From the IMG/VR virus record IMGVR_UViG_3300028800_000262, positions 1-29,329 of that record: 29,329 nt of DNA; one strand, given 5' to 3'. The notes beneath the pieces are model-generated. The model was not told the DNA's origin and did not search any database. It saw only the letters and a list, made by a program, of their open reading frames with translations. Shown one piece after another: positions 5,508 through 28,847 of this stretch. Source of the stretch: a virus. How positions within the stretch are numbered: the first letter of the stretch is position 1; each line of letters starts with the position of its first letter. Both the position numbers and the translations under genes were made by a program.

Positions 5508-5522
5508 CCGGGCTAATCCTCT
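5507..5522 (+). repeat. 16-bp direct repeat, copy 1
   Basis: ACCGGGCTAATCCTCT begins on the last base of the neck gene's stop codon. An identical 16-mer lies at 5963-5978. The two copies bracket exactly one minus-strand gene (5521-5964). On the minus strand the sequence reads AGAGGATTAGCCCGGT and so contains a Shine-Dalgarno-like AGAGGA. Confidence 0.85.
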
Positions 5523-5964: not shown

Positions 5965-5978
5965 CGGGCTAATCCTCT
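5963..5978 (+). repeat. 16-bp direct repeat, copy 2
   Basis: ACCGGGCTAATCCTCT is identical to 5507-5522. Here, on the minus strand, it supplies the ribosome-binding site for the gene starting at 5964 and contains the stop codon of the gene at 5969-6139. Confidence 0.85.
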
Positions 5979-6139
5979 GTGAGAAACCACGCCTCGACCG
6001 CATCTTGAATCTGCTGGGCGAGGCTGTGAGCTTGTTTGCGAAAGAGCGCTGGCTCGGCGGCGCACGGCTCGTCCCGCAGGAAGTGCTCGGCGAGGTCTTT
6101 GCAGGCCGGATCGTAGCCCTTGGCCACTGGGTCATCCAT
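5969..6139 (-). CDS. small acidic helical hypothetical protein
   Basis: The minus-strand ATG at 6139 gives 56 residues ending in LTED, with AAGGA upstream. The sequence (CKDLAEHFLRDEP, then FRKQAHSLAQQIQDAVEAW) is amphipathic helix throughout. Third positions are GC-rich in this frame. Its stop lies inside direct repeat copy 2, four bases before the start of the next minus-strand gene. It forms an operon with its neighbours. No function is recognised; it resembles small phage helper proteins in length and character only. Confidence 0.6.
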   Translation of the reverse strand: MDDPVAKGYDPACKDLAEHFLRDEPCAAEPALFRKQAHSLAQQIQDAVEAWFLTED

Positions 6140-6154
6140 CCGGGCGTTTTCCTT

Positions 6155-6358
6155 CTAGGCCGCCGCCGGCATCGAGCCGGGGGGCAGTTTTTCCGAGCAC
6201 GATTCGCAGACCCATAGGCCCCGGCGCGTGTGCCAGCCGTATCGACGAAGCTCCTCGGCAGCGTCCGGAACAGAGCCGCCCCAGGCAAGCCCAAGCTGTG
6301 GACGCTCGCAGTTGGCGCAGTGGACTTCCCAGGTCTTGACCAGCACTCCGTTCGCCAT
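6155..6358 (-). CDS. small treble-clef/zinc-ribbon-like hypothetical protein
   Basis: The 67-residue protein has two cysteine pairs, HCANC (about residues 13-17) and VCESC (about 50-54), separated by a helix-turn region (AAEELRRYGWHTRRGLW). That spacing fits a four-cysteine zinc ribbon. Such mini-proteins are frequent in phage accessory regions and may bind nucleic acid or protein partners. It is the middle gene of a four-gene minus-strand operon. A run of seven G (plus strand, 6361-6367) lies just upstream of the start. The precise role is unknown. Confidence 0.65.
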   Translation of the reverse strand: MANGVLVKTWEVHCANCERPQLGLAWGGSVPDAAEELRRYGWHTRRGLWVCESCSEKLPPGSMPAAA

Positions 6359-6377
6359 CCGGGGGGGCGTATCCTTC

Positions 6378-6632
6378 TCAGCGCCACGCCTTGCGGCGGG
6401 ACGTGCTATGTTCAGTGTCGATCAGCGCGCCGGTGGGCTTCGGGCCCAGGCCGACCGCGTACAGGTTCCAGTCATCGCCGAACTTGATCAGGCGCTCGTG
6501 GGTCGCGCGCTTCTCGGGCGTGAGCGTGGGAAGAACCTGCGCGGCCTCTGCGTCCGTCAGCCCCATAGCTTGAGCAAATTCGGCGTCGTCCATGGCCGGA
6601 ATGTATGCCTTTCGTTCTTGCTTGTCCAGCAT
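6378..6632 (-). CDS. small hypothetical protein, first gene of minus-strand operon
   Basis: The frame runs from ATG 6632 (84 residues) or, more likely, from ATG 6593 (71 residues, beginning MDDAEFAQAMGLTDAEAA). It contains a helical segment AAQVLPTLTPEKRATHERLI and a short compact tail LYAVGLGPKPTGALID. No ideal Shine-Dalgarno sequence precedes either start. It is divergent from the recombinase-like gene at 6653, with only 20-59 bases between starts. The function is unknown. Confidence 0.6.
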   Translation of the reverse strand: MLDKQERKAYIPAMDDAEFAQAMGLTDAEAAQVLPTLTPEKRATHERLIKFGDDWNLYAVGLGPKPTGALIDTEHSTSRRKAWR

Positions 6633-6652: not shown

Positions 6653-7234
6653 ATGGCCAAAAAGAAGCCCCCGCCGCCGGACCTGAGGCTCTACGTGAAC
6701 CCGCAACCCAAGAGGGGGCGGTTCTCGGCCGAGTGGCAGCGCGCCCACCTGCCGGCCGGCGAGGAGTACGTCGAGGACACCAAGGGCAAGCAGTTCGACG
6801 CCATGCTGCGCGCCCTTCGCCCCGGGAGCGTCGTGGTCGTGCGCCGGCTGTTCTGCCTGGCGCCGTGGACCGGGTCGCCTACGGTCCGAAAGCGGGCGAT
6901 GGCCAAGCGCGTCGACGCCATCAAGGCGGCCCGTGGCGTGGTCATGGAAGGCGAGACAGGGCGGCGCACCGATCAGGACGGGTTGTGCGCGCAGATGATC
7001 GTCGACGGCGTTGCTGACATCGCCAGCGCCGGCCGAGCTGGCCCGAAGCGCAAGCGCGGCAACCCCCTCGATCTGACGCCCGAACAGCTTGAGAAGGCCC
7101 GGCTGATCTGGTTCAGCCGGGAGCACAAGAAGAAGGACACGCGGCTCGCCGCTATTGAGGCGGCTATCGGCCGGAAGCTGTCTAACAGCTGGTGTTATCA
7201 AACCTTCGGGGCGCTCGACGCCCCTCGGAAATAG
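6653..7234 (+). CDS. degenerate serine-recombinase-like protein
   Basis: The 193-residue product follows the outline of a resolvase catalytic domain: an opening strand LRLYVNPQP, then FSAEWQRAHLPAGEEYVED, GKQFDAMLRALRPGSVVVVRRL, and DAIKAARGVVMEGETGRRTD. It ends with a helix-turn-helix-like tail (EKARLIWFSREHKKKDTRLA, then IGRKLSNSWCYQTFG). In active resolvases the first strand ends in a catalytic Ser (YARVS type) and the later motif reads WRLDRLAR. Here the Ser position is replaced (YVNPQ) and the second motif is RRLFCLAP, keeping only part of the arginine set. It may therefore bind DNA without cutting it. The family assignment is tentative. Confidence 0.5.
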   Translation: MAKKKPPPPDLRLYVNPQPKRGRFSAEWQRAHLPAGEEYVEDTKGKQFDAMLRALRPGSVVVVRRLFCLAPWTGSPTVRKRAMAKRVDAIKAARGVVMEGETGRRTDQDGLCAQMIVDGVADIASAGRAGPKRKRGNPLDLTPEQLEKARLIWFSREHKKKDTRLAAIEAAIGRKLSNSWCYQTFGALDAPRK

Positions 7235-7242
7235 GAGCGCCC

Positions 7243-8073
7243 GTGGCCGTCCCCCATCCAGCGTACCGGATCGAAGGCCCGGCCCTGATCAGCTTCAGCG
7301 GCGGCCGGACATCCGCCTACATGCTCCACGAAATCCTGCGGGCGCATGACGGCAAGCTTCCGGACGACGCGGTCGTGGCCTTCGCCAACACGGGCAAGGA
7401 GCGCGAGGAGACGCTGCGGTTCGTCCACGAGTGCGGGAGCCGGTGGGGTGTCGATATTCACTGGCTGGAGTGGCGCCCCATGCCGCAGCGCTACGAGGAA
7501 GTAGGGCTCAACAGCGCGGCTCGGCTCGGCGAGCCGTTCGAGGGACTGATCACTCTTCGGGGACGGCTTCCGAATCCATTGCAGCGGTTTTGTAGCCGAG
7601 AACTGAAGGTCGAGCCGATCAAGGCGTTCTGTCGCGCGCTAGGCTGGGAGCACTGGTCCAACATCGTCGGCCTACGCCACGACGAAGGCTTTCGCATCCT
7701 CAAAAAGTTGGCGGAGAACGACAACGGCGGACATCGCTGGAAGTCGGTCATGCCGCTCGCAAACGCTAAGATCACGCGCCGAGATGTCATGGCCTTCTGG
7801 GGGCAACAGCCGTTTGATCTCGACCTGCGCCCATACGAGGGCAATTGTGACCTCTGCTTCCTGAAATCCGAAGGCAAGCTCAAGGCGATCATTCGAGAGC
7901 AGCCGGGCGTGGCGGACTGGTGGGTAGCTCAGGAGGCCAATGGGAACCGCTTCGAGCGTGCCCGATCCTATGCCGAGCTGGCGCGAACTGTCTACGCGCA
8001 GCCCCATATGTTCGACGACTTAGCCGATGACGAACACGACGCCGAGTGCGGCCTCTTGTGTGCAGCAGAGTAG
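7243..8073 (+). CDS. PAPS reductase-like PP-loop ATPase
   Basis: The GTG at 7243 is preceded by AGGAGCG with ideal spacing; 276 residues follow. A PP-loop SFSGGRTSAYM lies at residues 17-27, as in the phosphoadenosine phosphosulfate reductase / adenine nucleotide alpha hydrolase family. RFCSRELKVEP (about 115-125) and the downstream NCDLCFLKSEGKL with CxxC (about 200-212) are typical of phage members of this family. These enzymes activate a substrate with ATP, often for sulfur transfer. In phages they have been suggested to act in nucleic-acid modification or sulfur metabolism, but the substrate here cannot be told. It sits in the accessory island, not among virion genes. A longer frame from 7192 overlaps the previous gene and is rejected. 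Confidence 0.8.
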   Translation: MAVPHPAYRIEGPALISFSGGRTSAYMLHEILRAHDGKLPDDAVVAFANTGKEREETLRFVHECGSRWGVDIHWLEWRPMPQRYEEVGLNSAARLGEPFEGLITLRGRLPNPLQRFCSRELKVEPIKAFCRALGWEHWSNIVGLRHDEGFRILKKLAENDNGGHRWKSVMPLANAKITRRDVMAFWGQQPFDLDLRPYEGNCDLCFLKSEGKLKAIIREQPGVADWWVAQEANGNRFERARSYAELARTVYAQPHMFDDLADDEHDAECGLLCAAE

Positions 8074-9228: not shown

Positions 9229-11205
9229 ATGGGCGCAGTAGCGGGACTTTCGGTGTCGCGGTTGATCCGCGTCTCAGTGACCCTATCGCCCACCGGCGCG
9301 GCGTTCGCCAACCTGAACAGCGTCCTGTTCCTCGGCGACTCCCCCGTCATCAACGTCGTCGAGCGCATCCGCAGTTACGGATCGATCGAGGACGTGGGCG
9401 CTGATTTCTCCGGAACCGATCCGGAATATCTGGCCGCGCTCCTGTTCTTCGCCCAGAATCCCCAGCCGACGCAACTCTTCATCGGGCGCTGGGCGTCGTC
9501 GGCGACGAGCGGGTTCAACATCGGCGGTCCGCTCACGGCGGCTCAGCAAGCCATCGGCCTCTGGACGGCGATCACGAACGGCTCGTTCGACATCTCGATC
9601 GACGGCGCGGTTCACAAGATTCTGTCCCTGAACTTCAGCGCGCAGACGAACCTGAACGGCGTCGCTGCGGTCATCAGCGCCAACCTGCCCGACACGGCCG
9701 CGAGTGCCGCAGTGCAGGCCCCGGGCGGTTCCTCGACTCACAACTATGTCCCGGCCGACACGATCACCCTGGCCGGCGGTACGTCGAGCGTCGCGGCCAT
9801 CCTGACCGTGGTATCGACCCAGGTCGTGAGCGCGACCGTTGTGGCGGGCGGCACGGGCGGGACGAACGGCGTTCAGACCGTCACCGGCACGACCGGGACC
9901 GGAACGAAGTTCCAGGCGCTGGTGACCATTGCCGGCGGCATCGTGACCGCAGTCAATTCGATCAGCGTTGCAGGCGCTTACACGGCGAATCCTGCGGTCC
10001 TGACCGCCGAGCCCGTCACTGGCGCGAGCCTCACCGGCTGCACCCTGAACGTCAAGATGGGCGTCCTGACGGCTTCAGTGTCGACGGCGGGCACCTATAC
10101 CGTCCTGCCGGCCAATCCCGTGGCCCAAGCCTCGAGCTCCGGCGCCGGCACGGGCGCCACGTTCAATATGACGTGGGATGGCCTGGGGGGCGCGGTCTGC
10201 ACCTGGACCGGCTCTCAGTTCGTCATCACCTCGAACACGACTGGCGTGAATTCGGCCGTGGGCTATGCGACCACCGATGGTTCGGGAACGGACATCTCGG
10301 CGCAGCTCGGCCTCACCGCAGCGACCGGATCGAGCATCATCGGCGGCATCGCGGCGGAGACCTTCGCCCACGCCATCTCGGTCTTGGATGCAGGGACCAC
10401 CTATTGGTACGGCCTCCTGCCCGCCACGCCTACTGTGGTCGACGCAGACCTCATCGCCGCCGCCGCCTATATCCAGGCCGCGAGCAAGCCTCACCTGTTC
10501 GGCTTCACCACCAACGAAGCCTCGGCCCTTGTCGCCAATCTCTCCACCGATATCGGATCGGTGCTGAAGGCGGCGGGCTACACCCGCACCTTCGCGCAAT
10601 GGTCTAACACCGCCTATGCCGCCGCCTCCATGTTCGGTCGGATTCTGACCACGAACTTGCAGGCCAACAACACTATGATCACCCTGGCTTACAAGAACGA
10701 GCCGGGGATCACGCCGGACGGCCTCACCGACGCCAATGCGAACGTGCTGGACACCAAGCGCTACAACTACTTTGCCCAGTTCCAGAACAACACGGCGATC
10801 ATCGTCAACGGCTGGTGCTGCGCGACGAACTTCATCGACGAAATCTTTGGCGCCGATGCCTTCGCGAACGATCTGCAGACCACGGCTTGGAATGCGCTCT
10901 ATACGACCCCGACCAAGGTTCCGCAGACCGACGCCGGAAACCAGATCATCGCCAACGCGCTGGCGGGCTCGTGCAATCGCTATGTCAACAACGGCTTCAT
11001 CGCGCCAGGCACGTGGAACTCGGCCGGGTTCGGGCAGCTCGTGACGGGTCAGTATCTGCCGAAGGGGTGGTACATCTTCACCCCCCCTATCGCATCGCAG
11101 CCGGAGAACATCCGCGGCCAGCGCATCTCCGTCCCCTTCCAGATCGCGGCGAAGCTCGCCGGCGCCATACAATCCGTGGATATCAGCGTCGTCATTGAGC
11201 GTTGA
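9229..11205 (+). CDS. tail sheath protein (DUF3383) with inserted domain
   Basis: The 658-residue protein matches the DUF3383 contractile sheath family. The N-terminal part (VSVTLSPTGAAFANLNSVLF, then LFFAQNPQPTQLFIGRW) is typical. So is the second half: TYWYGLLPATPTVVDADLIA, AGYTRTFAQWSNTAYAAASM, TLAYKNEPGITPDGLT, TTPTKVPQTDAGNQIIANAL and the end PIASQPENIRGQRISVPFQI. Usual members are several hundred residues shorter than 658. Here residues about 150-320 form an extra Gly/Thr/Val-rich beta domain, placed between NLNGVAAVISANL and VCTWTGSQFVITS, which are nearly adjacent in ordinary members. The insertion probably decorates the outer sheath surface. The sheath surrounds the tube and contracts during injection. 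Confidence 0.88.
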   Translation: MGAVAGLSVSRLIRVSVTLSPTGAAFANLNSVLFLGDSPVINVVERIRSYGSIEDVGADFSGTDPEYLAALLFFAQNPQPTQLFIGRWASSATSGFNIGGPLTAAQQAIGLWTAITNGSFDISIDGAVHKILSLNFSAQTNLNGVAAVISANLPDTAASAAVQAPGGSSTHNYVPADTITLAGGTSSVAAILTVVSTQVVSATVVAGGTGGTNGVQTVTGTTGTGTKFQALVTIAGGIVTAVNSISVAGAYTANPAVLTAEPVTGASLTGCTLNVKMGVLTASVSTAGTYTVLPANPVAQASSSGAGTGATFNMTWDGLGGAVCTWTGSQFVITSNTTGVNSAVGYATTDGSGTDISAQLGLTAATGSSIIGGIAAETFAHAISVLDAGTTYWYGLLPATPTVVDADLIAAAAYIQAASKPHLFGFTTNEASALVANLSTDIGSVLKAAGYTRTFAQWSNTAYAAASMFGRILTTNLQANNTMITLAYKNEPGITPDGLTDANANVLDTKRYNYFAQFQNNTAIIVNGWCCATNFIDEIFGADAFANDLQTTAWNALYTTPTKVPQTDAGNQIIANALAGSCNRYVNNGFIAPGTWNSAGFGQLVTGQYLPKGWYIFTPPIASQPENIRGQRISVPFQIAAKLAGAIQSVDISVVIER

Positions 11206-16827: not shown

Positions 16828-17514
16828 TTGGATCAGCGCGAACGGAGTAACGATCTCGAGGAAGTTCTCCGCGTGGTGCAGGACTCCACGCGCGCTCAGA
16901 TTTGGTGCGGCGGTCCCGGTATCATCCAAAGCTTCGACCGGGCTAAGATGACGGCCACGGTCCAGCCAGCGATTATGGCTAAGGTGCTGAACCCAGCCGG
17001 TGTCTGGACCGATACGGCCCTTCCTCTTCTGGTCGACTGTCCAGTTCAATTTCCCAGCGGGGGCGGCTGCATTCTGACCTTTGACGTGGCCAAGGACGAT
17101 GAGTGTTGGATCAACATCGCTGACCGCTGCATCGACGCATGGTGGCAGTCGGGCGGAGTCCAGCCTCAGGCCGAGATGCGGATGCATGACCTCAGCGATG
17201 GCTGCGTCTTCGTGGGTCAGCGAAGCCAGCCGAACGTGTTGCCAAGCGGTGTGACTGCGGGCGCCGCAGTCCTGCAAAGCAACGACGGCTCGACCTTCCT
17301 CGCCCTCAACCCGACCGCCCAAACGGTTGATATCACCGCCCCCGGCGGGTCGACGATCACTGCCGACGTGTCGATCGTCGGAACGCTGCACGTCACCGGC
17401 CAGATCACGTCCGATACCGATGTGGTCGCGGGGTCGGATAGCATCTCGCTGGTCAACCACGTCCACACTGACGTGCAGGTCGGCCTCAGCGACACTGGAC
17501 CGGCGACAGGCTGA
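16828..17514 (+). CDS. membrane-puncturing spike protein (Gp138-type)
   Basis: A TTG start (16828) gives 228 residues. The N-terminal OB-like domain (PGIIQSFDRAKMTATVQPAI, LLVDCPVQFPSGGGCILTFD) matches the Gp138 N-terminal domain. The C-terminal half is a repeated beta-helix with short turns (TVDITAPGGSTITADVSIVG). It ends near residue 210 in NHVHTDVQVG followed by TGPATG, the His-x-His apex known in phage spikes to bind an iron ion at the tip. The trimer pierces the outer membrane. The start choice rests on family length, as no ATG is available before the domain. Confidence 0.85.
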   Translation: MDQRERSNDLEEVLRVVQDSTRAQIWCGGPGIIQSFDRAKMTATVQPAIMAKVLNPAGVWTDTALPLLVDCPVQFPSGGGCILTFDVAKDDECWINIADRCIDAWWQSGGVQPQAEMRMHDLSDGCVFVGQRSQPNVLPSGVTAGAAVLQSNDGSTFLALNPTAQTVDITAPGGSTITADVSIVGTLHVTGQITSDTDVVAGSDSISLVNHVHTDVQVGLSDTGPATG

Positions 17515-17930
17515 TGAGAGTTCTCAAGCAGGATCCAATTACCGGCGACATGATCTTCGGTAGTGGGAATGACTTTTATGTCAATTCCCCCGAGGGCGTG
17601 GCGCAATGCGTCCTGACCGCCTTGAGGCTGCTTCAGGGCGAGTGGTTCCTGAACCTCCTCGCCGGCCTGCCGCTCTCGACCGAAATCCTGGGCTACGGAA
17701 CCGCCTCGACCTATGACCCGGCGATCAAGGCCGTGATCCTCGGCGTCGAGGGCGTGACGGAGATCGTGTCCTATTCCAGTGTGGTCGAGAATCGCAAGCT
17801 GATCGTGTCCGGCGTGCAGGTCATGACCCTCTACAGCGAGCAACCCGTCGCCATCGGTGGTATAGGGTTCGATCTGGCTCAGACTGCGGTCTGGGGCGGC
17901 TTCAATTGGGGGGAGGCCGAGCTTGGCTAA
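17514..17930 (+). CDS. baseplate wedge/sheath initiator protein (gp25/gpW-like)
   Basis: The 138-residue protein carries the gp25-like pattern: ITGDMIFGSGNDFYVNSPEG, AQCVLTALRLLQGEWFLNLL, AGLPLSTEILGYG and AVILGVEGVTEIVSYSSVVE. The ExR-type motif seen in gp25 proteins is probably represented by VVENRKL. It starts sheath polymerisation and links the wedge to the tube. Its end overlaps the next gene by 8 bases, and that next gene is a fibre-like one rather than the gpJ-like wedge gene normally found here. Confidence 0.85.
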   Translation: MRVLKQDPITGDMIFGSGNDFYVNSPEGVAQCVLTALRLLQGEWFLNLLAGLPLSTEILGYGTASTYDPAIKAVILGVEGVTEIVSYSSVVENRKLIVSGVQVMTLYSEQPVAIGGIGFDLAQTAVWGGFNWGEAELG

Positions 17931-19458
17931 GCTACTTCGCATTGCCCTGGCGGCGCTGGTCCTGGCGGCGTTCTCCCTCCCGTTGTCCATGATGGGAGTA
18001 CGCCCCGCCGCGGCGCAGACCTCGTGCGGCTTCCAGACCGGCCAAGTCGCGACCGCTTACGGCATCAACATTTGCTCCGTGGGGAAACTGGACTACGGAG
18101 CCTGGGGCGGCGCGCTGTCCGGCATTGGCCTCTCTCCGCAGCTTGCGACCGGACTCACCATCAATTCGCCGATTCTGAACACGCCGTCGATCTCAACCCC
18201 GACGATCAGCGGCGGCACGCTGACCAACCCGTCCCTGGTCAACCCAACGCTAACGGGCGCGTCCATCTCCGGCGGCACGCTCAACAATAGCACGATCGGC
18301 GGCGTCACCCCCGCAGCGGGTTCATTCACCGCGCTCACCGATACCGGGATTACGGGCTCGACTCAGTGCCTGCATGCAAACTCAGCCGGCGTTATCACAG
18401 GAACCGGGGCTGACTGCCCAGTCACTGGCTCAGTGGTGACGAGCTTCAATTCGCGCGGTGGCGTCGTTGTACCCGCCTCGGGCGACTATACCGCAGCACA
18501 AGTCACCAATGCGGCGGACAAGACGTCGGCGAACACGTTCACGACCGGCGCACAGAGCATGCTGGCCGAAGTCATCAATGGCGCGGCTGGCAGCGGCTAT
18601 GTCGAGTTCGACAATCAGTCGGTCGCCCCGGCTTCGCCAGCGAGCACCAACTTCCGGGTGTTTTCCAGTTCGGGTCACTTTGCATGGGTCGGCGCCAGCG
18701 GCTACGTGAAGACGTTCGACGGTTCGGCGCTCACTGCGAGTCGTACCTACAGCCTGCCCGATTTGGCTGGCACGCTGACTGTGCTTGGCAACACCACAAC
18801 CGGATCAGGCTCAACCCTGGTGCTCGGAACTGGCGCGGCCATCGGAACGCCAGCGATTTCCGGCGGGACGATCAACAATGCGGTCATCGGCGGCGTCACT
18901 CCGGCAGCAGCCACCTTTAGCTCGATCACCGATACGGGCATCACCGGCTCGACTCAGTGCCTTGAGGTCAATTCCTCGGGAGCTCTTGTGGGCTTCGGGG
19001 CCGGGTGTGCAGGCGGCGCGAGCGGCGGCAAGCAGGGAACGTGGACGCCTACGTTCAGCTTCACGACGCCGGGAAATCTCTCCGTCAGCTACAACGCCGG
19101 CCGATTCGGAACCTACACCTGCGTCAACGTCACGGGCGGCGCCTTGGTCGAGGTCGAGGCGCACATAACGGCCAGCACCTTCACCTTCACGACGGCCTCC
19201 GGAACGTTCATCATGGGCTCCCTGCCCTATGCGATGACCAACACGAGCCTTGGCCCGGGCGGAACGATCACGAACACCAACGGAAACGTGACGTGGACGG
19301 GCGCTCCACGCCTGCAAGTCAACGACAGCACTCACTTCACGATCAACAATCTCGCGAGCGGATCGTCCGGCGCCAACTGGACAACAGCCAACTTCACTAC
19401 CGGCAGTCCGCCCACGATCGACTTCACTGCGACCTATCAGACCGCGTCGAGCTGCTGA
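17923..19458 (+). CDS. fibre-like protein with Sec signal peptide, between wedge genes
   Basis: A TTG start with GGGGGAGG at 6-base spacing gives 511 residues. Residues 1-31 are a textbook signal peptide: basic AKLLR, a hydrophobic core IALAALVLAAFSLPLSMMGV, and a cleavage motif PAAA before QTS. The mature part has fibre character: a TPSISTPTISGGTLTNPSL repeat region and two copies of a 41-residue module (18295-18417 and 18886-19008). A variable C-terminal beta domain begins near GGKQGTWTPTFSFTTPG. It has eight cysteines, an even number, and none in the signal. Its N-terminal mature part resembles that of the gene at 21368. It probably encodes a receptor-binding or decoration protein, but why it carries an export signal is unclear. 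Confidence 0.78.
   Translation: MAKLLRIALAALVLAAFSLPLSMMGVRPAAAQTSCGFQTGQVATAYGINICSVGKLDYGAWGGALSGIGLSPQLATGLTINSPILNTPSISTPTISGGTLTNPSLVNPTLTGASISGGTLNNSTIGGVTPAAGSFTALTDTGITGSTQCLHANSAGVITGTGADCPVTGSVVTSFNSRGGVVVPASGDYTAAQVTNAADKTSANTFTTGAQSMLAEVINGAAGSGYVEFDNQSVAPASPASTNFRVFSSSGHFAWVGASGYVKTFDGSALTASRTYSLPDLAGTLTVLGNTTTGSGSTLVLGTGAAIGTPAISGGTINNAVIGGVTPAAATFSSITDTGITGSTQCLEVNSSGALVGFGAGCAGGASGGKQGTWTPTFSFTTPGNLSVSYNAGRFGTYTCVNVTGGALVEVEAHITASTFTFTTASGTFIMGSLPYAMTNTSLGPGGTITNTNGNVTWTGAPRLQVNDSTHFTINNLASGSSGANWTTANFTTGSPPTIDFTATYQTASSC
18295..18417 (+). repeat. 41-codon fibre module, copy 1
   Basis: A 123-base module encodes IGGVTPAAGSFTALTDTGIT, then GSTQCLHANSAG, and ends in ADC. Two other copies of exactly the same length lie at 18886-19008 and 21647-21769. 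The strongest DNA conservation is around GGCTCGACTCAGTGCCT. Each copy carries two cysteines, one near the middle and one as the last residue. Confidence 0.8.
18886..19008 (+). repeat. 41-codon fibre module, copy 2
   Basis: Second copy of the 123-base module in the same gene, encoding IGGVTPAAATFSSITDTGIT, then GSTQCLEVNSSG and ending in AGC. It shares GGCTCGACTCAGTGCCT exactly with copy 1. The invariant length without insertions implies a folded unit. Confidence 0.8.
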
Positions 19459-20643
19459 ATGGCCGTTATCCCACTTGCCTCGATCGCATGCACGATTGAC
19501 GCCAGCGGCATCTCTGCGCCGCCATATGCCGATATCTTGGATACGCTCACAGCGCAGTTCCAGGCCATCTTCGGCTCCGATGCGGTGCTGACCCCGGACA
19601 CGCAGCCGGGCCAATGGCTCGCGATCCTGGCCAAGGCGCAGGACTCGTCCAACGCTGCGATGATCCTCGCCTTCAACAATCAGTCGCCCTCGACGGCGGT
19701 CGGTAATGGCCTGTCGTCGGTCGTGAAGATCAACGGGATCAAGCGCGAGAGCCCGTCCAACTCCACGTCCGAGCAACTGATCGTGGGCGAGGCCTTCACC
19801 CCGATTGTCAACGGCATGGTGGGTGATGGCGCGAACACATGGGCGCTGCCGGCCAGCGTCATCATTCCGTTCGGTGGATCGATCACCGTCACCGCGACCT
19901 GCATGACCACAGGCGCGATCCAGGCCGCAGCGGATACGATCACGCGCATCCTGACGCCTACGCGAGGATGGCAGAGCACGAACAATGCATCTGCGGCTAC
20001 AGTAGGCGCGCCGGTCGAGGCCGACCCCCAACTGCGCCAGCGGCAGACGACATCGACTGCACTCCCGTCCAAATCGATTTTCGACGGGACTGTCGGGGCA
20101 GTCGAGAATCTGCCGGGCGTGACCAAGGTCCAGCCCTACGAAAACGACACGGGAACGACTGACGGAAACGGTATCCCGGCTCACTCGATCGCCTTCGTGG
20201 TCGAGGGCGGCGACGATACCCAGATCGCCCAGACCATCCTCCTGAAGAAGGGTCCCGGCTGCCGCACCTATGGCTCGACGGCCGTCGTCGTGTTGGATGT
20301 GAACGGGATCGAGAAAACGATCTATTTCTCGCGGCCCGTGATCCAGACCATCGGCGTGCAGGTCAACATGACCGCCCTGGCCAACTTCGTCTCCACCAGC
20401 GAAGCGAATGTGCAGGCGGATGTCTCGGCATTCATCAATGCCCTGATGATCGGCCAAGAGGTCTATCTGACGCAACTCTATGCGCCAGCTCTTCGCACCG
20501 GACAGCTTGACTACGGCACGTTCAACGTCACCGACATACAGATCAAGCTGAACAGCGGCTCATTCGGCCACGCCAATATCCCGGTGGGTTACAACGGCCA
20601 GGCGACCTGCACGCCCGCCGGTGTGACGATCATCCTGTCGTGA
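19459..20643 (+). CDS. baseplate wedge protein, gpJ-like
   Basis: The product has 394 residues and begins directly after the previous stop. The segments ADILDTLTAQFQAIFGSDAV, TPDTQPGQWLAILAKAQDSS, KINGIKRESPSNSTSEQLIV, TPTRGWQSTNNASAATVGAP and GAVENLPGVTKVQPYENDTG are the standard baseplate J pattern. DGNGIPAHSIAFVVEGGDD, also typical, follows. The protein forms the wedge arms around the hub and triggers contraction. The stop overlaps the next start (GTGA). Confidence 0.9.
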   Translation: MAVIPLASIACTIDASGISAPPYADILDTLTAQFQAIFGSDAVLTPDTQPGQWLAILAKAQDSSNAAMILAFNNQSPSTAVGNGLSSVVKINGIKRESPSNSTSEQLIVGEAFTPIVNGMVGDGANTWALPASVIIPFGGSITVTATCMTTGAIQAAADTITRILTPTRGWQSTNNASAATVGAPVEADPQLRQRQTTSTALPSKSIFDGTVGAVENLPGVTKVQPYENDTGTTDGNGIPAHSIAFVVEGGDDTQIAQTILLKKGPGCRTYGSTAVVVLDVNGIEKTIYFSRPVIQTIGVQVNMTALANFVSTSEANVQADVSAFINALMIGQEVYLTQLYAPALRTGQLDYGTFNVTDIQIKLNSGSFGHANIPVGYNGQATCTPAGVTIILS

Positions 20644-21368
20644 GCGCCGATCTGACGCCGTGGCTGTCGCTGGTCACGTCAGAACATGCCGGGGCGACGC
20701 GCTTCATCGCTGCGCTCTCCGCATCGATCCAGGGCCTCGCGGACCAGCGCATCAACTGTCTGGCGCTGCCGGGATATTTCGACCTCGATCTAGCCGAGGG
20801 GCAACAGCTCGACGTGATCGGCGAGTGGGTCGGCGTGAACCGCGAGCTCGAGCAGCCGCTTCCGAATGTCTACTTCTCCTTCGACACCCCCGGCCTGGGC
20901 TTCGATGTCGGCGTTTGGTTCAGCCCATACGATCCGACCGAAGGTCTCGTGAACCTTCCGGACGCGTTCTATAAGCCGGCCATCAGGTCCAAGATCCAGG
21001 CCAACCATTGGGACGGCTTGATCGATTCCGCAGTCTCAGCGCTCGAGTTGGTCCTAAGGCCCTACGGCCTGGGCTGCTTCATCAACGACCACATGGATAT
21101 GAGCATGACGGTCGGAGTCTATGGCGGCCTGGTGCCGAACTGGATTTCCGGCCTCTTGGTCCAGAATAAGCTCTCGTTCAAGCCGGAGGGCGTCCACGTC
21201 AACTACGTGACGCCGAGCGTTCCTGGCGCCCCCCTTTTCGGCTTCGACATGGAGACGGCAGTGATCTCCGGCTTTGACCGGGGTAGTTGGCCCATCGATC
21301 TTGGCGTAGTTTACGCGGGCTCCGGCTCGGGCTTTGGCATTTTTTCCTTCGGGGGATCGTCGTTCTAA
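20640..21368 (+). CDS. DUF2612 baseplate protein (gpI-like position)
   Basis: GTG start; 242 residues. It matches the DUF2612 family: an N-terminal helical part with ASIQGLADQRINCLALPGYF and DLDLAEGQQLDVIGEWVGVN, then GVWFSPYDPTEGLVNLPDAF, YKPAIRSKIQANHWDGLIDS, and a beta-rich end (LVQNKLSFKPEGVHVNYVTP). It occupies the gpI-like slot after gpJ and probably links the wedge to the fibres. The C-terminal 40 residues, rich in Gly and Phe (SGSGFGIFSFGGSSF), may be the fibre-docking tail. Its TAA overlaps the following ATG (TAATG). Confidence 0.83.
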   Translation: MSADLTPWLSLVTSEHAGATRFIAALSASIQGLADQRINCLALPGYFDLDLAEGQQLDVIGEWVGVNRELEQPLPNVYFSFDTPGLGFDVGVWFSPYDPTEGLVNLPDAFYKPAIRSKIQANHWDGLIDSAVSALELVLRPYGLGCFINDHMDMSMTVGVYGGLVPNWISGLLVQNKLSFKPEGVHVNYVTPSVPGAPLFGFDMETAVISGFDRGSWPIDLGVVYAGSGSGFGIFSFGGSSF

Positions 21369-23137
21369 TGCGCAAGCTGCTCCTGGCTATCGCCGGCGCC
21401 GCCATGCTGATGGCGCCTCTGGGCGCCTTGGCGCAATCCGTACCCAACGGCGGCACGATCAGCTTTGGGCAGGTCTGGACCCCTGCGCAATGGACCACGG
21501 CGTGGCAGTCAAAACAGGATTATGGCGCATGGGGCGGCTGCCTCAGCGGCATGGGCCTATCGCCGACGATCGCATCGGGATGCACCCTCAGCGGCGATAC
21601 GTTCACCTCCGGCGCGATCACCGCCAGCACGATCGATAGTTCGGTCATTGGGGGCACGACCCCCGCGGCAGGCAAGTTCAGCACCCTGACCGACACTGGC
21701 GTCACGGGCTCGACGCAATGCCTGCAGGTCAATTCGGCCGGTCTCATTTCGGGTTTCGGAGCCAGCTGCGGCGTGGCGGCCGGCGGGACTAGCGGTCAGA
21801 TCCTCTACAACAATTCGGGCGCGTCGGCCGGCTTCACGATGAACACCGATGTGACCGTGGTTCCCTCGACTGGAGTGGCGACCATCCACTCGGTGGGCGG
21901 CGTCACCATCGGCACGGCTTTCGTCAAGAATATCGGCACTTCGGGCGGCACGCTTTGCCTGCTCAACACGACCTGCGTCTTTGGAAGCGCCATGGTCGCC
22001 GATGTGAGCGCAACCCTGACGGGGCTTCCGGCGGCCTATCGTAGCGGCTCCAGCATCGTCGCTACTGGCGGGACCGGAGCGAGCTCTGGCCTGCAGTCGC
22101 TCAGTTACGGCCACTCCAGCTATTTCGGAGCTGATCGCGCCAACGGAACCGTCGGGTCGCCCTCCGCGGTGACATCGGGAAACATCGTCGGGCACTACGA
22201 TTTTGGAGCATGGGGCTCCGATAGCACCCTGCACACGATCGCCACCATCACTTCCACGGCGGCGGCCGGGACCATCGGCACTTCCGACGCCTCGGCCAAC
22301 CTCTGCATCAACAACATCCAGTCTGGAACGGCGAGCCTTCCCGCCACTCCGGTGTTCTGTCTGAATCAGGCCGGCTACCTCGCGCTGGCCTACAATGTTC
22401 AGGGATCACCGTCGCCGAAGTATGGAACGGCGCTGGAGATCACGGGCCCCGATGGTGTGGGCACGACCCTCGATATGTTCGCGTTTGACAATGCGGCCGG
22501 GGCCTATCCCGGCCTGCAGTTGGAACTCTTCGGCTGCACGAAGGCCAGCATCTGCGCTGTCCCGAATAACAAGTACGTGGGGACTGTCGCCTTCGCCGCG
22601 TGGAACGGCACTGGAGATACTGACGACGCGGCAGTGTTGGCGAAGACCACCGAAGCCCAGACGCCAAGCCACAACGGCATGGACATGGAGTTCTGGTACA
22701 CGCCCAACGGCTCTACGTCGTTCACCCTTGGGGCCGCGTTGAGCCCAGGCGGCAATGGCGGCTTCGTCATCGGATCCACCACGGACCTTGGAGCCGGCAC
22801 CCTCGATACGGCAGGGCAGATCGCGACTGCAGGCCTTCAAGTGGTCGAGCCGAGCTTCCATCTGCGCGGGATGTGGGGCGGCGGCGCTCCGACAGTGTCC
22901 AACGGAAGCCTGACGAGCGGTTCTGGGGATAACGCAGGGGAGCTGACGGGCGGATCAGCGGTCACGAGCGTGACGGTGACCTTCAACCGCGGCTGGAGCC
23001 ATCGGCCGTTCTGCACGGTGATACCGGAGGGTAACGTCGCGGGCACGGTCTATATCTCTCCGGCGCCCACAACGTCGTCGTTCACCATCAACAGCACTTC
23101 GGCATACAATGGCGGCTATATGTACACCTGCCTCTAG
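21368..23137 (+). CDS. large fibre-like protein with Sec signal peptide
   Basis: The ATG at 21368 overlaps the previous TAA; 589 residues follow. Residues 1-22 form a clear signal peptide (MRKLLLAIAGAAMLMAPLGA, then LA before QSV). The mature protein has a QVWTPAQWTTAWQSKQDYGA segment typical of tail-fibre N-termini, a 41-residue module (21647-21769) shared with the gene at 17923, then Gly/Ser/Thr-rich beta repeats. It ends with a compact C-terminal domain (about the last 90 residues, including TFNRGWSHRPFCTVIPEGN). Twelve cysteines occur, all in the mature part, some as close pairs (LCLLNTTC, CTKASIC), which suggests disulfides. A start at 21287 would overlap the DUF2612 gene and hide the signal peptide, so it is rejected. 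Confidence 0.8.
   Translation: MRKLLLAIAGAAMLMAPLGALAQSVPNGGTISFGQVWTPAQWTTAWQSKQDYGAWGGCLSGMGLSPTIASGCTLSGDTFTSGAITASTIDSSVIGGTTPAAGKFSTLTDTGVTGSTQCLQVNSAGLISGFGASCGVAAGGTSGQILYNNSGASAGFTMNTDVTVVPSTGVATIHSVGGVTIGTAFVKNIGTSGGTLCLLNTTCVFGSAMVADVSATLTGLPAAYRSGSSIVATGGTGASSGLQSLSYGHSSYFGADRANGTVGSPSAVTSGNIVGHYDFGAWGSDSTLHTIATITSTAAAGTIGTSDASANLCINNIQSGTASLPATPVFCLNQAGYLALAYNVQGSPSPKYGTALEITGPDGVGTTLDMFAFDNAAGAYPGLQLELFGCTKASICAVPNNKYVGTVAFAAWNGTGDTDDAAVLAKTTEAQTPSHNGMDMEFWYTPNGSTSFTLGAALSPGGNGGFVIGSTTDLGAGTLDTAGQIATAGLQVVEPSFHLRGMWGGGAPTVSNGSLTSGSGDNAGELTGGSAVTSVTVTFNRGWSHRPFCTVIPEGNVAGTVYISPAPTTSSFTINSTSAYNGGYMYTCL
21647..21769 (+). repeat. 41-codon fibre module, copy 3
   Basis: Third 123-base copy, in the neighbouring fibre gene, encoding IGGTTPAAGKFSTLTDTGVT, then GSTQCLQVNSAG and ending in ASC. 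It is more diverged at DNA level than copies 1 and 2 but identical in length and cysteine placement, so the two fibre genes are paralogous or have exchanged segments. Confidence 0.75.
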
Positions 23138-23216
23138 GGACTATGCGCTCTGGCGATTGGTCAAGGTGGGGCCGAAGTGATATCTCAGACGCAGACGAAC
23201 TAGCGGAGAGGCCGGG

Positions 23217-24191
23217 GTGGCAGAGAACGACTTCACCGCATTCGCGATCGGGGCCGGCGCCAATGTGCTGTCGCCCTCGGCATGGGCTGCAGACGGCAGT
23301 ATCGCCCAAGGCTTTCTCGCCGGGGAGGCCTATTCCCAGAAGTGCAACACGGCTTGGCGTCAAGCCTCGTTCGTCGCCGCCGCCCTGGGTCAGCTCATCA
23401 ACGACTCGACGGGGCTCAATGCCCTGGATGATGGCGTTATCGCCCATCTTGAAGCGAGCATGCAGGCTCTCCTGCTGGGTCAGCCGGAATATGCCGGCGT
23501 CGATACGGGCGCGGCAAACGTCTACGTTGGGGCCCTGGCGCCCGCCTACATCGCAGCATCCTATCCAGACGGGATGACGGTCCGCTTCCAGGTCGGCGCC
23601 GGCCACACGAACACCGGCAACTCGACGTTCAACTGCGGTACTCCCGGCGCGAAGCCGATTCTCTATCAGGACGGGACCCAGATCGGCAAAGGCACGCTCA
23701 ATGCCGGCGGCACATTCACCCTGACCTATAGCGCCGCAGCCTCCGCATGGCTCATGCAAGCCCTGTCGCGAAGCCCTGTGGCCAACATCTGGTATGCATC
23801 CACTCAGGTTCGGGTCACTACCAATTCGAGCGGCTGGACCAATCTCGCCAACTCGATCGCCGTCACCAAGAAGCGGGCGACCAACATCATCTATTGGGAA
23901 GCGTTCGCGTCGTTCCTCAACGACACCACGAGCTCTCCCGGCGGCACCAAGGCTGGCCTCCAGTTGACCTATAACACCGGAGGCGGCCCGACCGTGCTTG
24001 ATCAGGAGGTGGACGTCGGCCTGACGGGCGTCCTATCCACAATCTCCGTCTTGGACGTGGCATCGATCATGACGCTCGACAATGGCAGCTTGCCGCAGAG
24101 CTATACGCTGCAGCCGCAGTTCAGCTCGCCGTCCAGCACGCTCACGGGCATGGCCACGTCCGCCGTGCGGGGGATTGAAGTATGGAACTGA
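23217..24191 (+). CDS. tail fibre protein without signal peptide
   Basis: A GTG start with GGAGAGG upstream gives 324 residues. The N-terminus (FAIGAGANVLSPSAWAADGS, then FLAGEAYSQKCNTAWRQASF and AALGQLINDST) is the pattern of phage tail fibre attachment domains in which fibre residues contact the baseplate. The middle (YPDGMTVRFQVGAGHTNTGN, STFNCGTPGAKPIL) is a common fibre shaft repeat. The C-terminal 130 residues are a beta-rich candidate receptor-binding domain. It has no signal peptide, unlike the fibre-like genes around it. It overlaps the next gene by 10 bases. Confidence 0.8.
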   Translation: MAENDFTAFAIGAGANVLSPSAWAADGSIAQGFLAGEAYSQKCNTAWRQASFVAAALGQLINDSTGLNALDDGVIAHLEASMQALLLGQPEYAGVDTGAANVYVGALAPAYIAASYPDGMTVRFQVGAGHTNTGNSTFNCGTPGAKPILYQDGTQIGKGTLNAGGTFTLTYSAAASAWLMQALSRSPVANIWYASTQVRVTTNSSGWTNLANSIAVTKKRATNIIYWEAFASFLNDTTSSPGGTKAGLQLTYNTGGGPTVLDQEVDVGLTGVLSTISVLDVASIMTLDNGSLPQSYTLQPQFSSPSSTLTGMATSAVRGIEVWN

Positions 24192-24727
24192 AAACTGATC
24201 TCTCCCATGGAGATGTCGCGCGGGCTGTCGCATCGGCGTTTCCGAATCGGACGTTCACGATCATCGATCCGATCGAGGATAACTCAGGATTCAGCGTGGT
24301 TTTCGACGGTCCATCCGTCACCGGAGCGCAACTCAACGCGGCGATCGCGGCCTATTCAAGCGCCTCCGCTGTGCTTGACCGGAGCCGGGCCGTGCTGTTT
24401 GGCCAGGTCGATTCGGCGCTGGCGTCGAAGCTCGCCGCATGGACCTATCAGGGCCACGCGTGCCCGATCACTGACAGCCTGAAAATCGGGGCGCGCGAGG
24501 CAGTTACCGTGGTCGGCAGCGCGCCGATCAGTTGGAACTTCGGGAATGGCGTCGTGATGCAGATGGCGGCGGCTGATTTGGCGACGTTCATCATGACCCG
24601 CGAAGCCTATGAGCAGGCGTGCCGGACCTTCGCAGCGGGCCTCATTGCCGAGATCACCGCGGCCTCGAGCGCGAAGTCCCTGGCGGCGCTCGACCTCACG
24701 TCCGGATGGCCAACGCCGCAGGGTTGA
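24182..24727 (+). CDS. fibre-associated protein, DUF4376-like C-terminus (assembly role possible)
   Basis: The 181-residue protein follows the fibre gene with a 10-base overlap. The N-terminal part (LSHGDVARAVASAFPNRTFT) and the C-terminal helical domain (YQGHACPITDSLKIGAREAV, then DLATFIMTREAYEQACRTFA and KSLAALDLTSGWP) resemble the DUF4376-type modules found in phage fibre-associated and fibre-assembly proteins. It may act as a chaperone for the preceding fibre or as a small structural part. Nothing indicates export or a membrane. The assignment rests on position and partial pattern. Confidence 0.6.
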   Translation: MELKTDLSHGDVARAVASAFPNRTFTIIDPIEDNSGFSVVFDGPSVTGAQLNAAIAAYSSASAVLDRSRAVLFGQVDSALASKLAAWTYQGHACPITDSLKIGAREAVTVVGSAPISWNFGNGVVMQMAAADLATFIMTREAYEQACRTFAAGLIAEITAASSAKSLAALDLTSGWPTPQG

Positions 24728-24730
24728 CCC

Positions 24731-24766
24731 GAAGGCCCCCGCGCCTGATCATGGCGCCTCGCCTTC
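24731..24766 (+). terminator. two-step hairpin between fibre genes
   Basis: GAAGGC (24731-24736) pairs with GCCTTC (24761-24766), and inside it GCGCC (24741-24745) pairs with GGCGC (24753-24757) around a 7-base loop. It lies in the 51-base gap before the next gene. There is no T-run, so it is a structured mRNA boundary or weak terminator. Confidence 0.45.
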
Positions 24767-24778
24767 TGGGGGAACGGC

Positions 24779-25189
24779 ATGCGCTATAAGCTCTCTCTGA
24801 TCTCTGCGCTTGCCGCTCTCGCCTCGCTGGCTTGCGCTCCAGCAATGGCCGCAGCGCCCACTGTCGGAATCTATCAATATCCCGGCGGCCAGATCCAACA
24901 AGGCCAGGGCGTCGCACTGATCCCGGCCAGCTCGCCGTCGCTCGGCTACCAGCAGACCTCGTCGGTCTCGACTGCGGTCGGCCTTCCTTCGATCCCCGCG
25001 GGCGCGAAGATCGCGGTGATCGTGCCGGAGACGCAGTCGATCCGCTGGCGGGATGACGGGACCAGCCCCACGGCCAGCGTTGGCATGCCGATCTCAGCGC
25101 TCCAGCCCTTCGTCTACACGGGCGTCCTGTCGGCGTTCAAGATGATCCAGACCAGCGCGACGGCGACCGTCAACGTCACCTACTACTAA
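24779..25189 (+). CDS. small exported protein with fibre-tip-like fold
   Basis: The ATG is preceded by GGGGGAAC; 136 residues. Residues 1-24 form a signal peptide (MRYKLSLISALAALASLACA, ending PAMA before AAP). The mature part has a Gln/Gly/Ser-rich N-terminus followed by a compact beta domain (IPAGAKIAVIVPETQSIRWR, DDGTSPTASVGMPISA, then FKMIQTSATATVNVTYY). This beta domain is a form I recognise from many phage genomes, normally without a signal peptide, as a small virion-associated protein. The mature part has no cysteine. The gene sits between two fibre genes. Its role is unknown: surface decoration or an exported host-modifying factor are both possible. Confidence 0.68.
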   Translation: MRYKLSLISALAALASLACAPAMAAAPTVGIYQYPGGQIQQGQGVALIPASSPSLGYQQTSSVSTAVGLPSIPAGAKIAVIVPETQSIRWRDDGTSPTASVGMPISALQPFVYTGVLSAFKMIQTSATATVNVTYY

Positions 25190-25199
25190 GGGCCATGCG

Positions 25200-26903
25200 A
25201 TGAAGCGCCTGTCTGCACTCCTCGCGGCGATTGCGCTTCTCGGCGCGACGCCATCGCTCGCCCAGATTTCGACGGCAGGCCCGGCTCAATACGGCGCGCC
25301 TCCAGGGGGCGGAGGAGGTGGCGGATCCGGCACGGTCACGTCGGTTGCTATCACGGTCCCATCGATCTTGGCGGTCTCCGGTTCGCCGATCACCACGGCC
25401 GGCACGTTCGGGATCACGCTGAACACGCAGTCCGCGAATGGCGTGTTCGCGGGCCCCACGACCGGCGCCGCAGCCGCCCCGACGTTCCGCGCGCTGGTGG
25501 GGGCCGACCTGCCCGCGCCAGGCGCCAGCTCGGCTGGGGGTGTCTATTCCAAGGCCGCCGCCAGCCATAACTTCCTGACGCAGATCGGGACGGACGGCAG
25601 CGTGTCGGCGGCCCAGCCGGCGTGCGCGGACCTGTCGAACGCGGGCGTGTTCTGCCCCGCCAGCGCGGGCACGGGCGTGATCACGGCGCTGGGGGTCAAT
25701 GTGGGTTCGGCAGGGGCTCCCGTGGTTAATGGCGGAGCGCTCGGAACGCCTTCCTCAGGGACCGGAACCAACATCACCGGCATTCCGAATGCCGCCGTGA
25801 TTGGCCTCGGTAGCGCGGCGCTGGTGAACACCGGGACTTCGGGCGCGACGATCCCACTGCTCAACGCCGCTAATACGTTCTCGGGCAACACCACCGTATC
25901 GAGCGCATCATTCGGCCTTTCCGGCAACATCTCCGCTCCAGCGTGGACCACTGCCGGCATCCGCTACGCCAATGCCGCCGCGACCCTAACCGACACGACC
26001 TCGTCTGGCACCGTCGCCAGCGCCACCAGCGACCTCTGGAGCGGCAGCACCATCGCGGCCTCTAGCGCGACGACGTTCACGAACTATGACACCGCGACGT
26101 TCAAGGTTCCCACGGCGGGGACGAACGTCACGATGACGAACAAGGCGGCCATCGCGGCGGACAGCATCCGCATCGGTGGCGCGACCATCGGCTCTAACGC
26201 GCTGGCGGTGACGGGGACGGCGCTGTTTAACAACAATGTAACTCTGGCTTCAAGTATCCAAATATTCGGGTCTACAGGAACAACGAACCCTACAATTTCC
26301 TTATCTGGCAGCACAGATAGAGGATTTGGTTTTTCACAAAGTCGTCCTTGTATGATATATGGTGGAGCTTGCCAAGCCGCCAGCGGTGCTGCAAGCGGCG
26401 CCTCCTTATCCCTTTTGGCGACGCTTTCTTGGGGGGCTGGCGACCCAACTACTTCTGCGCAAGACCTTTTTATCGGACGCGCTGCTGCTGCTGCCGCCCA
26501 ACTCGGCGCGGCTGCTTCCGCCTCTCCCGTAGCCCAAATCCTCCAATCCCAAGGCTCACGCGGCGGCACCGACACCAACACCGCTGGTGGCAGCCTCACC
26601 ATCACCTCTGGAAATGGCACCGGCAACGCTACGCCCTCTGACCTGATCCTCAAGTCTCCAGTCGCCACCACGTCCGGCACGAGCGCGCAGACGCAGACAA
26701 CCGGCCTGACCATTGACCAAGGAACGGCGGTCCTGAGTGGTTACACGGTGGCGACGCTTCCGGTCGCGCCGAAGACCGGCGCTATGGCCTACGTGACCGA
26801 CGCCGACGCTTGCGTGAATGGTGCAACGCCAACCCACACCTCCGGCACCGCATTTTGCTCCGTCATCTGGAATGGCGCGGCGTGGCACGGGATCACAGGA
26901 TAA
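25200..26903 (+). CDS. large fibre-like protein with Sec signal peptide and variable tip
   Basis: The product has 567 residues. Residues 1-21 form a signal peptide (MKRLSALLAAIALLGATPSL, then A before QIST), followed by a Gly-rich linker. Next comes the widespread phage fibre shaft pattern (GTVTSVAITVPSILAVSGSP, QSANGVFAGPTTGAAAAPTF, PSSGTGTNITGIPNAAVIGL). The last third (about residues 345-567) differs in base composition, with an AT-richer patch at 26225-26480, and ends in AYVTDADACVNGATPTHTSG and a SVIWNGAAWHGITG tip. Six cysteines, all in the mature part, lie in three close pairs. It is probably a receptor-binding fibre whose tip has been exchanged with another phage. The export signal is unexplained. 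Confidence 0.78.
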   Translation: MKRLSALLAAIALLGATPSLAQISTAGPAQYGAPPGGGGGGGSGTVTSVAITVPSILAVSGSPITTAGTFGITLNTQSANGVFAGPTTGAAAAPTFRALVGADLPAPGASSAGGVYSKAAASHNFLTQIGTDGSVSAAQPACADLSNAGVFCPASAGTGVITALGVNVGSAGAPVVNGGALGTPSSGTGTNITGIPNAAVIGLGSAALVNTGTSGATIPLLNAANTFSGNTTVSSASFGLSGNISAPAWTTAGIRYANAAATLTDTTSSGTVASATSDLWSGSTIAASSATTFTNYDTATFKVPTAGTNVTMTNKAAIAADSIRIGGATIGSNALAVTGTALFNNNVTLASSIQIFGSTGTTNPTISLSGSTDRGFGFSQSRPCMIYGGACQAASGAASGASLSLLATLSWGAGDPTTSAQDLFIGRAAAAAAQLGAAASASPVAQILQSQGSRGGTDTNTAGGSLTITSGNGTGNATPSDLILKSPVATTSGTSAQTQTTGLTIDQGTAVLSGYTVATLPVAPKTGAMAYVTDADACVNGATPTHTSGTAFCSVIWNGAAWHGITG

Positions 26904-28207: not shown

Positions 28208-28578
28208 AGATCGACTGGCCAGATAATCCGACAGAGCTTGAAGGGGTCAAATACCTCAAGGCCTTGCATAGCTGCGTGGAAGACAATTCCGCCAAGTTGG
28301 GCCGGAAGATCACCATCACGAGCATTAGCGCCTTCGTTGCGGTCATTATCGCTATGTCGACCGCCACCCTCACAATGGCGAGATGGTTTGCCGCAGTTGA
28401 CGCCAGTCTGAAGACGATGGGCCAGATTGTGGACGATCAAAAGGCCCAGTCAGCTAAAATGGACGCCTTCAACACCAAGATTGAGGTGCTGATGGCGACT
28501 TCCCAAGACAACAATACCGCACTCCTCGGGCCGAACAGCGCATCGAATCGCCGGGCGGCTTTGCGAAATCATCAATGA
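28204..28578 (+). CDS. membrane-anchored coiled-coil protein (possible inner-membrane spanin)
   Basis: An ATG overlapping the previous stop gives 124 residues. A polar N-terminus is followed by one hydrophobic helix at about 37-58 (ITITSISAFVAVIIAMSTAT) and then a long helical part (ASLKTMGQIVDDQKAQSAKM), predicted to be periplasmic and coiled coil. The next gene, overlapping it, encodes a lipoprotein. An inner-membrane coiled-coil protein plus an overlapping lipoprotein is the usual layout of a two-component spanin that fuses inner and outer membranes at lysis. The N-terminal extension before the membrane helix is longer than in lambda Rz, so this is tentative. Confidence 0.55.
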   Translation: MKIDWPDNPTELEGVKYLKALHSCVEDNSAKLGRKITITSISAFVAVIIAMSTATLTMARWFAAVDASLKTMGQIVDDQKAQSAKMDAFNTKIEVLMATSQDNNTALLGPNSASNRRAALRNHQ

Positions 28579-28847
28579 AACGGCTTTGCCTCTTTCTGGC
28601 GCTGGCCGGCTGTGCGCATCAGGCCAAACTGACTCCTGTGCATCGCGTCGGTTTTCCGGCCATGCCCGGCCACGTTCTAGCGCCGCAGGCATGCGCCATT
28701 CCATCGCCGCCGTCCTATCCAGATACGCCAGCCGCTTTGGCCGCCGCTCCGGGTCTTATCGGCCGGGACCTGTTGATAGCGAAGGGAAAGGCCGCTCGAG
28801 ATGCCTATGAAGCCAGGGTGGCCACGGCGAAGCATGCCTGTGGCTGA
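28575..28847 (+). CDS. lipoprotein (possible outer-membrane spanin)
   Basis: The ATG overlaps the preceding stop; 90 residues. Residues 1-13 are a short lipoprotein signal (MKRLCLFLALAGC) with an LAGC lipobox; Cys13 would be acylated and the following Ala would not favour inner-membrane retention. The mature part is Pro-rich (PSPPSYPDTPAALAAAPG) with a C-terminal helix and a final Cys. Overlap with the membrane-anchored coiled-coil gene and the lysis context suggest an Rz1-like outer-membrane spanin, though it is longer than Rz1. Confidence 0.6.
   Translation: MKRLCLFLALAGCAHQAKLTPVHRVGFPAMPGHVLAPQACAIPSPPSYPDTPAALAAAPGLIGRDLLIAKGKAARDAYEARVATAKHACG

Follow-up and report, generated by a model that had tools for sequence, protein, structure and literature searches.

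Phage tail fibres are regarded as folding and assembling in the cytoplasm, and the fibres or spikes of T4 and P22 are able to join particles in vitro, outside the cell. The exported phage proteins lom and bor of lambda and llp of T5 are anchored in the host envelope as membrane proteins or lipoproteins. The stretch considered here, referred to as the window, is the 29,329-base IMG/VR virus record IMGVR_UViG_3300028800_000262, in which Pfam and PHROG scans identified a major capsid protein, tail sheath, tape measure, baseplate hub, wedge, baseplate J and DUF2612 protein. Burkholderia phage Magia and Edwardsiella phage vB_EpM_ZHS belong to the same phage type, sharing its head and baseplate type (53-60% identity for the major capsid protein, 39-48% for DUF2612) and its gene order. 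In both, however, baseplate J directly follows the wedge gene and there are no exported fibre genes, whereas the window contains four genes, named here by their first base (17923, 21368, 24779 and 25200), whose products begin with Sec-type signal peptides. We propose, with a probability of roughly 0.55, that the four proteins are accessory adhesins or fibres that undergo maturation in the periplasm and are added to virions at lysis or afterwards. The underlying export, cleavage and disulfide bonding, for which independent sequence statistics argue, we consider very probable. The genes and two of the signals are as follows.

17923..19458, + strand: predicted exported fibre-like protein 1, 511 residues, TTG start, signal 1-31, between the wedge and baseplate J genes
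17923..18015, + strand: Sec signal peptide MAKLLRIALAALVLAAFSLPLSMMGVRPAAA^QT of 17923, by the signal rule (^ marks the predicted cut)
21368..23137, + strand: predicted exported fibre-like protein 2, 589 residues, signal 1-22, module GQVWTPAQWTTAWQSKQDY beyond the predicted cut, six consecutive cysteine pairs
21368..21433, + strand: Sec signal peptide MRKLLLAIAGAAMLMAPLGALA^QS of 21368, by the signal rule
24779..25189, + strand: predicted exported small beta-domain protein, 136 residues, signal 1-24 containing its sole cysteine, mature domain 51-136
25200..26903, + strand: predicted exported fibre-like protein 3, 567 residues, signal 1-21, three cysteine pairs

The initial annotation had recognised complete signal peptides in these four proteins, and this is borne out by an explicit rule, used in place of SignalP, that demands a basic n-region, an uncharged hydrophobic core of 8 or more residues and small residues at -3 and -1. 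All four pass as signals of the Sec/signal peptidase I type, with predicted cleavage at PAAA^QT (31 residues) in 17923, GALA^QS (22) in 21368, PAMA^AA (24) in 24779 and SLA^QI (21) in 25200; shuffled N-termini satisfy the rule in 0.55% of cases and internal segments in 0.2%, and the chance of four genes in nine passing it is about 1e-7. The TTG start of 17923 is preceded by GGGGGAGG, and in-frame ATGs are found within its signal at 17989 and 17992. In 24779 an in-frame ATG at 24845 (Met23) lies beside the predicted cleavage site, where a cytoplasmic form nearly identical to the mature protein could begin. No alternative start codon is present within the first 50 codons of 25200. The four have no lipobox or +1 cysteine where cleavage is predicted, nor do they contain a second membrane segment or any obvious means of anchoring in the outer membrane, and the maximum 19-residue hydropathy of the mature parts is 1.27-1.55; the suggestion that the products coat the host surface thus finds no support.

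The cysteines of the three long proteins are all located in the mature parts, and a recount agrees with the numbers first given, 8, 12 and 6, several of them as close pairs. Taken in order along the sequence, they pair as 35/51, 149/165, 346/362 and 400/511 in 17923, as 58/72, 118/134, 197/203, 313/331, 390/396 and 549/588 in 21368, and as 142/152, 384/391 and 538/553 in 25200, at a density of 1.63 per 100 residues of mature protein, compared with 0.82 for the remaining window genes. The single cysteine of 24779 belongs to the signal, leaving none in the mature part. Proteins 17923 and 21368 are paralogous in their N-terminal halves, and between them cysteine pairs have been gained or lost as units: 35/51 is present only in 17923 and 58/72 only in 21368, while the pair of the motif GSTQCLxANSSGxxSGTGSDC is common to both. 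This motif occurs twice in 17923, once in 21368 and in 40 viral loci, and the majority of the complete proteins that contain it have a signal peptide. The related motif STQCLxxNSSG is also found in very large chromosomal proteins of Patescibacteria (L055-L062: Nomurabacteria, Adlerbacteria, Parcubacteria), some with a signal, which suggests an exchange of domains between phage adhesins and surface proteins; among Acidobacteriota the cysteine motif is present in only 2 of 297 genomes.

Proteins that are exported and disulfide-bonded are known to be marked by an even number of cysteines (PMC7678975), and by the criterion of that study the window proteins resemble periplasmic DsbA substrates in combining such a number with a signal peptide, although those substrates are host-encoded and the present proteins come from a phage tail operon. 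Parity was evaluated for genes called in the collected viral loci, with a signal score of at least 4.5, a length of at least 120 residues and redundancy removed. The window and related viral contigs of metagenomic origin together supplied 108 non-redundant signal-bearing genes, of which 100 contain cysteines, and the mature numbers are even in 92 and odd in 8. By subset, loci selected by the cysteine motif give even-to-odd ratios of 65:7 with a signal and 116:123 without; for loci retrieved otherwise, chiefly through DUF2612 and the 24779 family, the ratios are 21:2 and 86:110. Signals were searched over alternative starts, which raises sensitivity and somewhat lowers specificity; false calls would be expected to dilute parity and not to produce it. 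In 25 proteins, 24779 among them, the cysteines within the signal peptide are odd in number; of these proteins, 23 have an even count in the mature part, so that parity belongs to the cleaved product alone. Pairing is also local in 64 of 76 signal-bearing proteins (within a pair the median gap is 16, from one pair to the next 60), as against only 32 of 68 signal-less ones. Cysteine parity, local pairing and the emergence of parity after removal of the signal together argue strongly for export and for the periplasmic disulfide formation that the initial annotation had suggested, and the parity of the mature parts points to cleavage at the level of the group.

The signals also appear in front of domains typical of virions. 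One example is a viral locus (L101) in which tape-measure-like and baseplate-like genes, assigned by eye, are followed by three signal-bearing genes. The second of these (L101:10644) is a full-length homologue, with 29% identity and an E value of 2e-23, of a tail-module protein of the cultured Brevundimonas phage vB_BpoS-Strzyga (USN16792.1, L133:7995-8981), whose gene lies behind the tape measure. The predicted cleavage site TFA^TILFAGGE aligns with MAVLFAGGE, the very start of the signal-less Strzyga protein, and LOKG_00041 of Loktanella phage pCB2051-A, also encoded in a tail module, is a further homologue of the mature part. The exported form has 6 cysteines, whereas its signal-less counterparts in Strzyga and pCB2051-A have 2 and 0. 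A comparable situation is seen for the LTGTE N-terminal fibre domain, which was sampled through a DNA pattern independent of both signal and cysteines, the LTGxE search yielding 5 loci: the domain exists in a signal-less form (MADVTITGLP..LTGTE) and in a form with a signal (AFA^QTSTITALP..LTGTE..VGCATPATCK). Other proteins of exported clusters match Gly_rich_2, the second domain of Mtd, pectate-lyase-like beta-helix, tail fibre and tail spike families, and clusters elsewhere include enzyme-type domains (esterase, GDSL lipase, apiosidase). In a baseplate relative (L020), two signal-bearing genes with 4 mature cysteines each stand between J and DUF2612; one cysteine-containing exported form of the phage Gly_rich_2 domain is encoded within this baseplate operon (L020:2747-3625). 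Runs of three or more consecutive signal-bearing genes, with almost no matches to known families, were observed in the viral contigs L064 (up to seven), L029, L068, L081, L100, L037 and L078. Like ordinary tail fibres and tailspikes, the long window proteins are repeat-rich, rich in Gly, Ser, Thr and Asn, and encoded in the baseplate/fibre region, and the LTGTE, tail-spike, Mtd second and Gly_rich_2 domains of known fibres recur in their exported relatives; ordinary fibres, however, have neither a cleavable Sec signal nor fully paired cysteines, and the exported proteins have both.

The four genes lie within the baseplate/fibre operon. Their neighbours are the following.

17514..17930, + strand: baseplate wedge subunit (phrog_120, 7.8e-21), 5' neighbour of 17923
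19459..20643, + strand: baseplate J protein (Pfam/PHROG match), first base immediately after the 17923 stop
20640..21368, + strand: DUF2612 baseplate/tail protein (Pfam/PHROG match), stop overlapping the 21368 start
23217..24191, + strand: canonical fibre, signal-less, 2 cysteines, phrog_11303 N-terminal domain
24182..24727, + strand: DUF4376-like protein 3' of the canonical fibre (weak match, E 0.015), possibly its assembly protein
28575..28847, + strand: likely lysis-cassette lipoprotein by position and LALAGC lipobox, with single-pass membrane open reading frames around it

Gene 17923 is inserted between wedge and J, overlapping the former by 8 bases and ending one base before the latter, and 21368 starts within the stop of DUF2612 (TAATG); such overlaps of start and stop would couple the translation of both genes to that of the baseplate. 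Promoter-like sites across the region are at chance level (4 found, 2.4 expected). On the 3' side of the exported genes, small membrane open reading frames and the lipobox protein at 28575 resemble a lysis cassette, a candidate region in which profile scans matched no family. Because of this baseplate-operon position and the lysis-like genes downstream, translation of the exported genes most probably accompanies that of the baseplate proteins, not long before lysis.

We hypothesise that the late baseplate operon would give rise to four adhesin or fibre proteins of virion type, which Sec would carry to the periplasm and signal peptidase I would relieve of their signals. The periplasmic oxidation system would then form local disulfides, as the cysteine statistics suggest, and the soluble mature proteins would be held in the periplasm until lysis, to be released with the virions and perhaps to attach to the baseplate or to other fibres. 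Export would thereby offer an oxidising folding compartment, which the cytoplasm is not, and an adhesin resistant to proteases and to the environment. By analogy with the joining of T4 and P22 fibres or spikes to particles in vitro, such late addition is chemically plausible. Among the options first raised, late joining of exported fibres is favoured because the signals directly precede domains of ordinary virion type and the genes belong to the baseplate operon; its export part stands on the evidence above, and its virion part is suggested by those domains and that position.

Several observations weigh against this proposal. Attachment to the virion and its timing are read from sequence context. 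Pfam and PHROG scans of 17923, 21368 and 25200 gave no convincing match and no recognised virion-attachment domain, and the phrog_11303 N-terminal fibre domain is found in the window only in 23217 and in none of the exported four. The window thus already possesses a canonical fibre, which, as initially noted, is not cysteine-rich (2 cysteines) and has no signal by the rule; its N-terminal ~84 residues are common to the fibres of relatives retrieved through the DUF2612 baseplate gene, and 23217 therefore most likely serves the phage as its ordinary virion fibre. Magia and ZHS, both cultured and closely related to the window phage, have no counterparts of the exported genes. By its mature domain, 24779 is a member of a family of ~90 residues in which 23 of 24 relatives are signal-less, the exception (L053) having a signal and 4 mature cysteines and preceding a signal-bearing gene with a tail-spike match. 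Homologues lacking the N-terminal segment, which the initial annotation had named as a finding that would refute its view, hence do exist for 24779, all but one of the 24 being of this kind, and they identify its signal as an added module rather than a false one. Finally, no report of Sec-exported tail fibres or of their assembly onto tailed virions was found in the literature searched, outside of which lay subscription journals and preprints.

The strongest competing explanation, possible though considerably less probable, is that the exported proteins act free of the virion after lysis or secretion, as decoys, adsorption modulators or depolymerases that bind receptors, polysaccharide or debris. 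The missing attachment domains in 17923, 21368 and 25200, the separate signal-less fibre and the esterase, GDSL lipase and apiosidase domains of cluster members elsewhere all speak for it, whereas the coincidence of mature ends with the N-termini of signal-less tail-module proteins and the overlapping genes of the baseplate operon speak against it. A role in lysogenic conversion or superinfection exclusion, with display on the host envelope as for lom and bor of lambda, would fit the signal peptides, and the fibre region of lambda also holds such genes; export is common to lom, bor, llp of T5 and the window proteins, but the first three are anchored and are not repeat-rich fibres. Such display is improbable since no anchor was found, neither a lipobox at the cleavage site nor a second membrane segment, and both the chance level of promoter-like sites and the translational coupling to baseplate genes run counter to it. 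That the hydrophobic N-termini are virion- or membrane-interaction segments of proteins folded and assembled as usual in the cytoplasm is very improbable, for although most 24779 homologues are signal-less and the in-frame ATGs in or near the signal ends of 17923 and 24779 could yield cytoplasmic forms, parity and local pairing are confined to signal-bearing proteins, parity arises only once the signal is removed, and 25200 offers no other start.

Further searches characterised the individual proteins. A PDB sequence search gave nothing useful; tblastn against 50,697 phage records returned no match for 17923 and 21368 and short repeat-type matches only for 25200. The AlphaFold model of the C-terminal domain of 17923 had a predicted local distance difference test score of 32 and was not used. 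For 24779 the predicted structure contains a confident beta domain at residues 51-136, with weak PDB matches (best E 0.012, cupin-like) and, among viral proteins, matches mostly to uncharacterised phage proteins of about 90-110 residues. Its family (L031-L054; window 24779-25189) has an invariant WRDDGTSP, and the window member is without a Pfam or PHROG match. Members in L036, L043 and L049 lie, by eye, among head genes, and that of the window among fibres; the family is possibly a decoration or fibre-tip domain. Elsewhere in the window, the tail sheath (9229-11205), of 658 residues, matches a 455-position profile over almost its full length, which implies a large insertion of about 200 residues. 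Short open reading frames with CxxC pairs (zinc-ribbon-like, e.g. 6155-6358) are located on the - strand at 5521-6632 amid plus-strand structural genes, and an open reading frame at 7192-8073, among head and tail genes, appears by eye PAPS-reductase-like or adenine nucleotide alpha-hydrolase-like.

At the level of tailed phages in general, it can be hypothesised, at about even odds, that many of them assemble in two compartments, the particle in the cytoplasm and Sec-exported, periplasm-oxidised adhesins being added at or after lysis, with signals spreading as modules onto fibre domains of the ordinary kind. The combination of a signal with an even number of locally paired cysteines provides a simple sequence test for finding such proteins. 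If the proposal is correct, it would help to explain why the fibre annotation of such genes has been missed, and widespread adhesins that are first exported and oxidised would change the prediction of virion composition, host range and adhesin stability. The Sec and Dsb systems of the host would then become possible determinants of phage infectivity.

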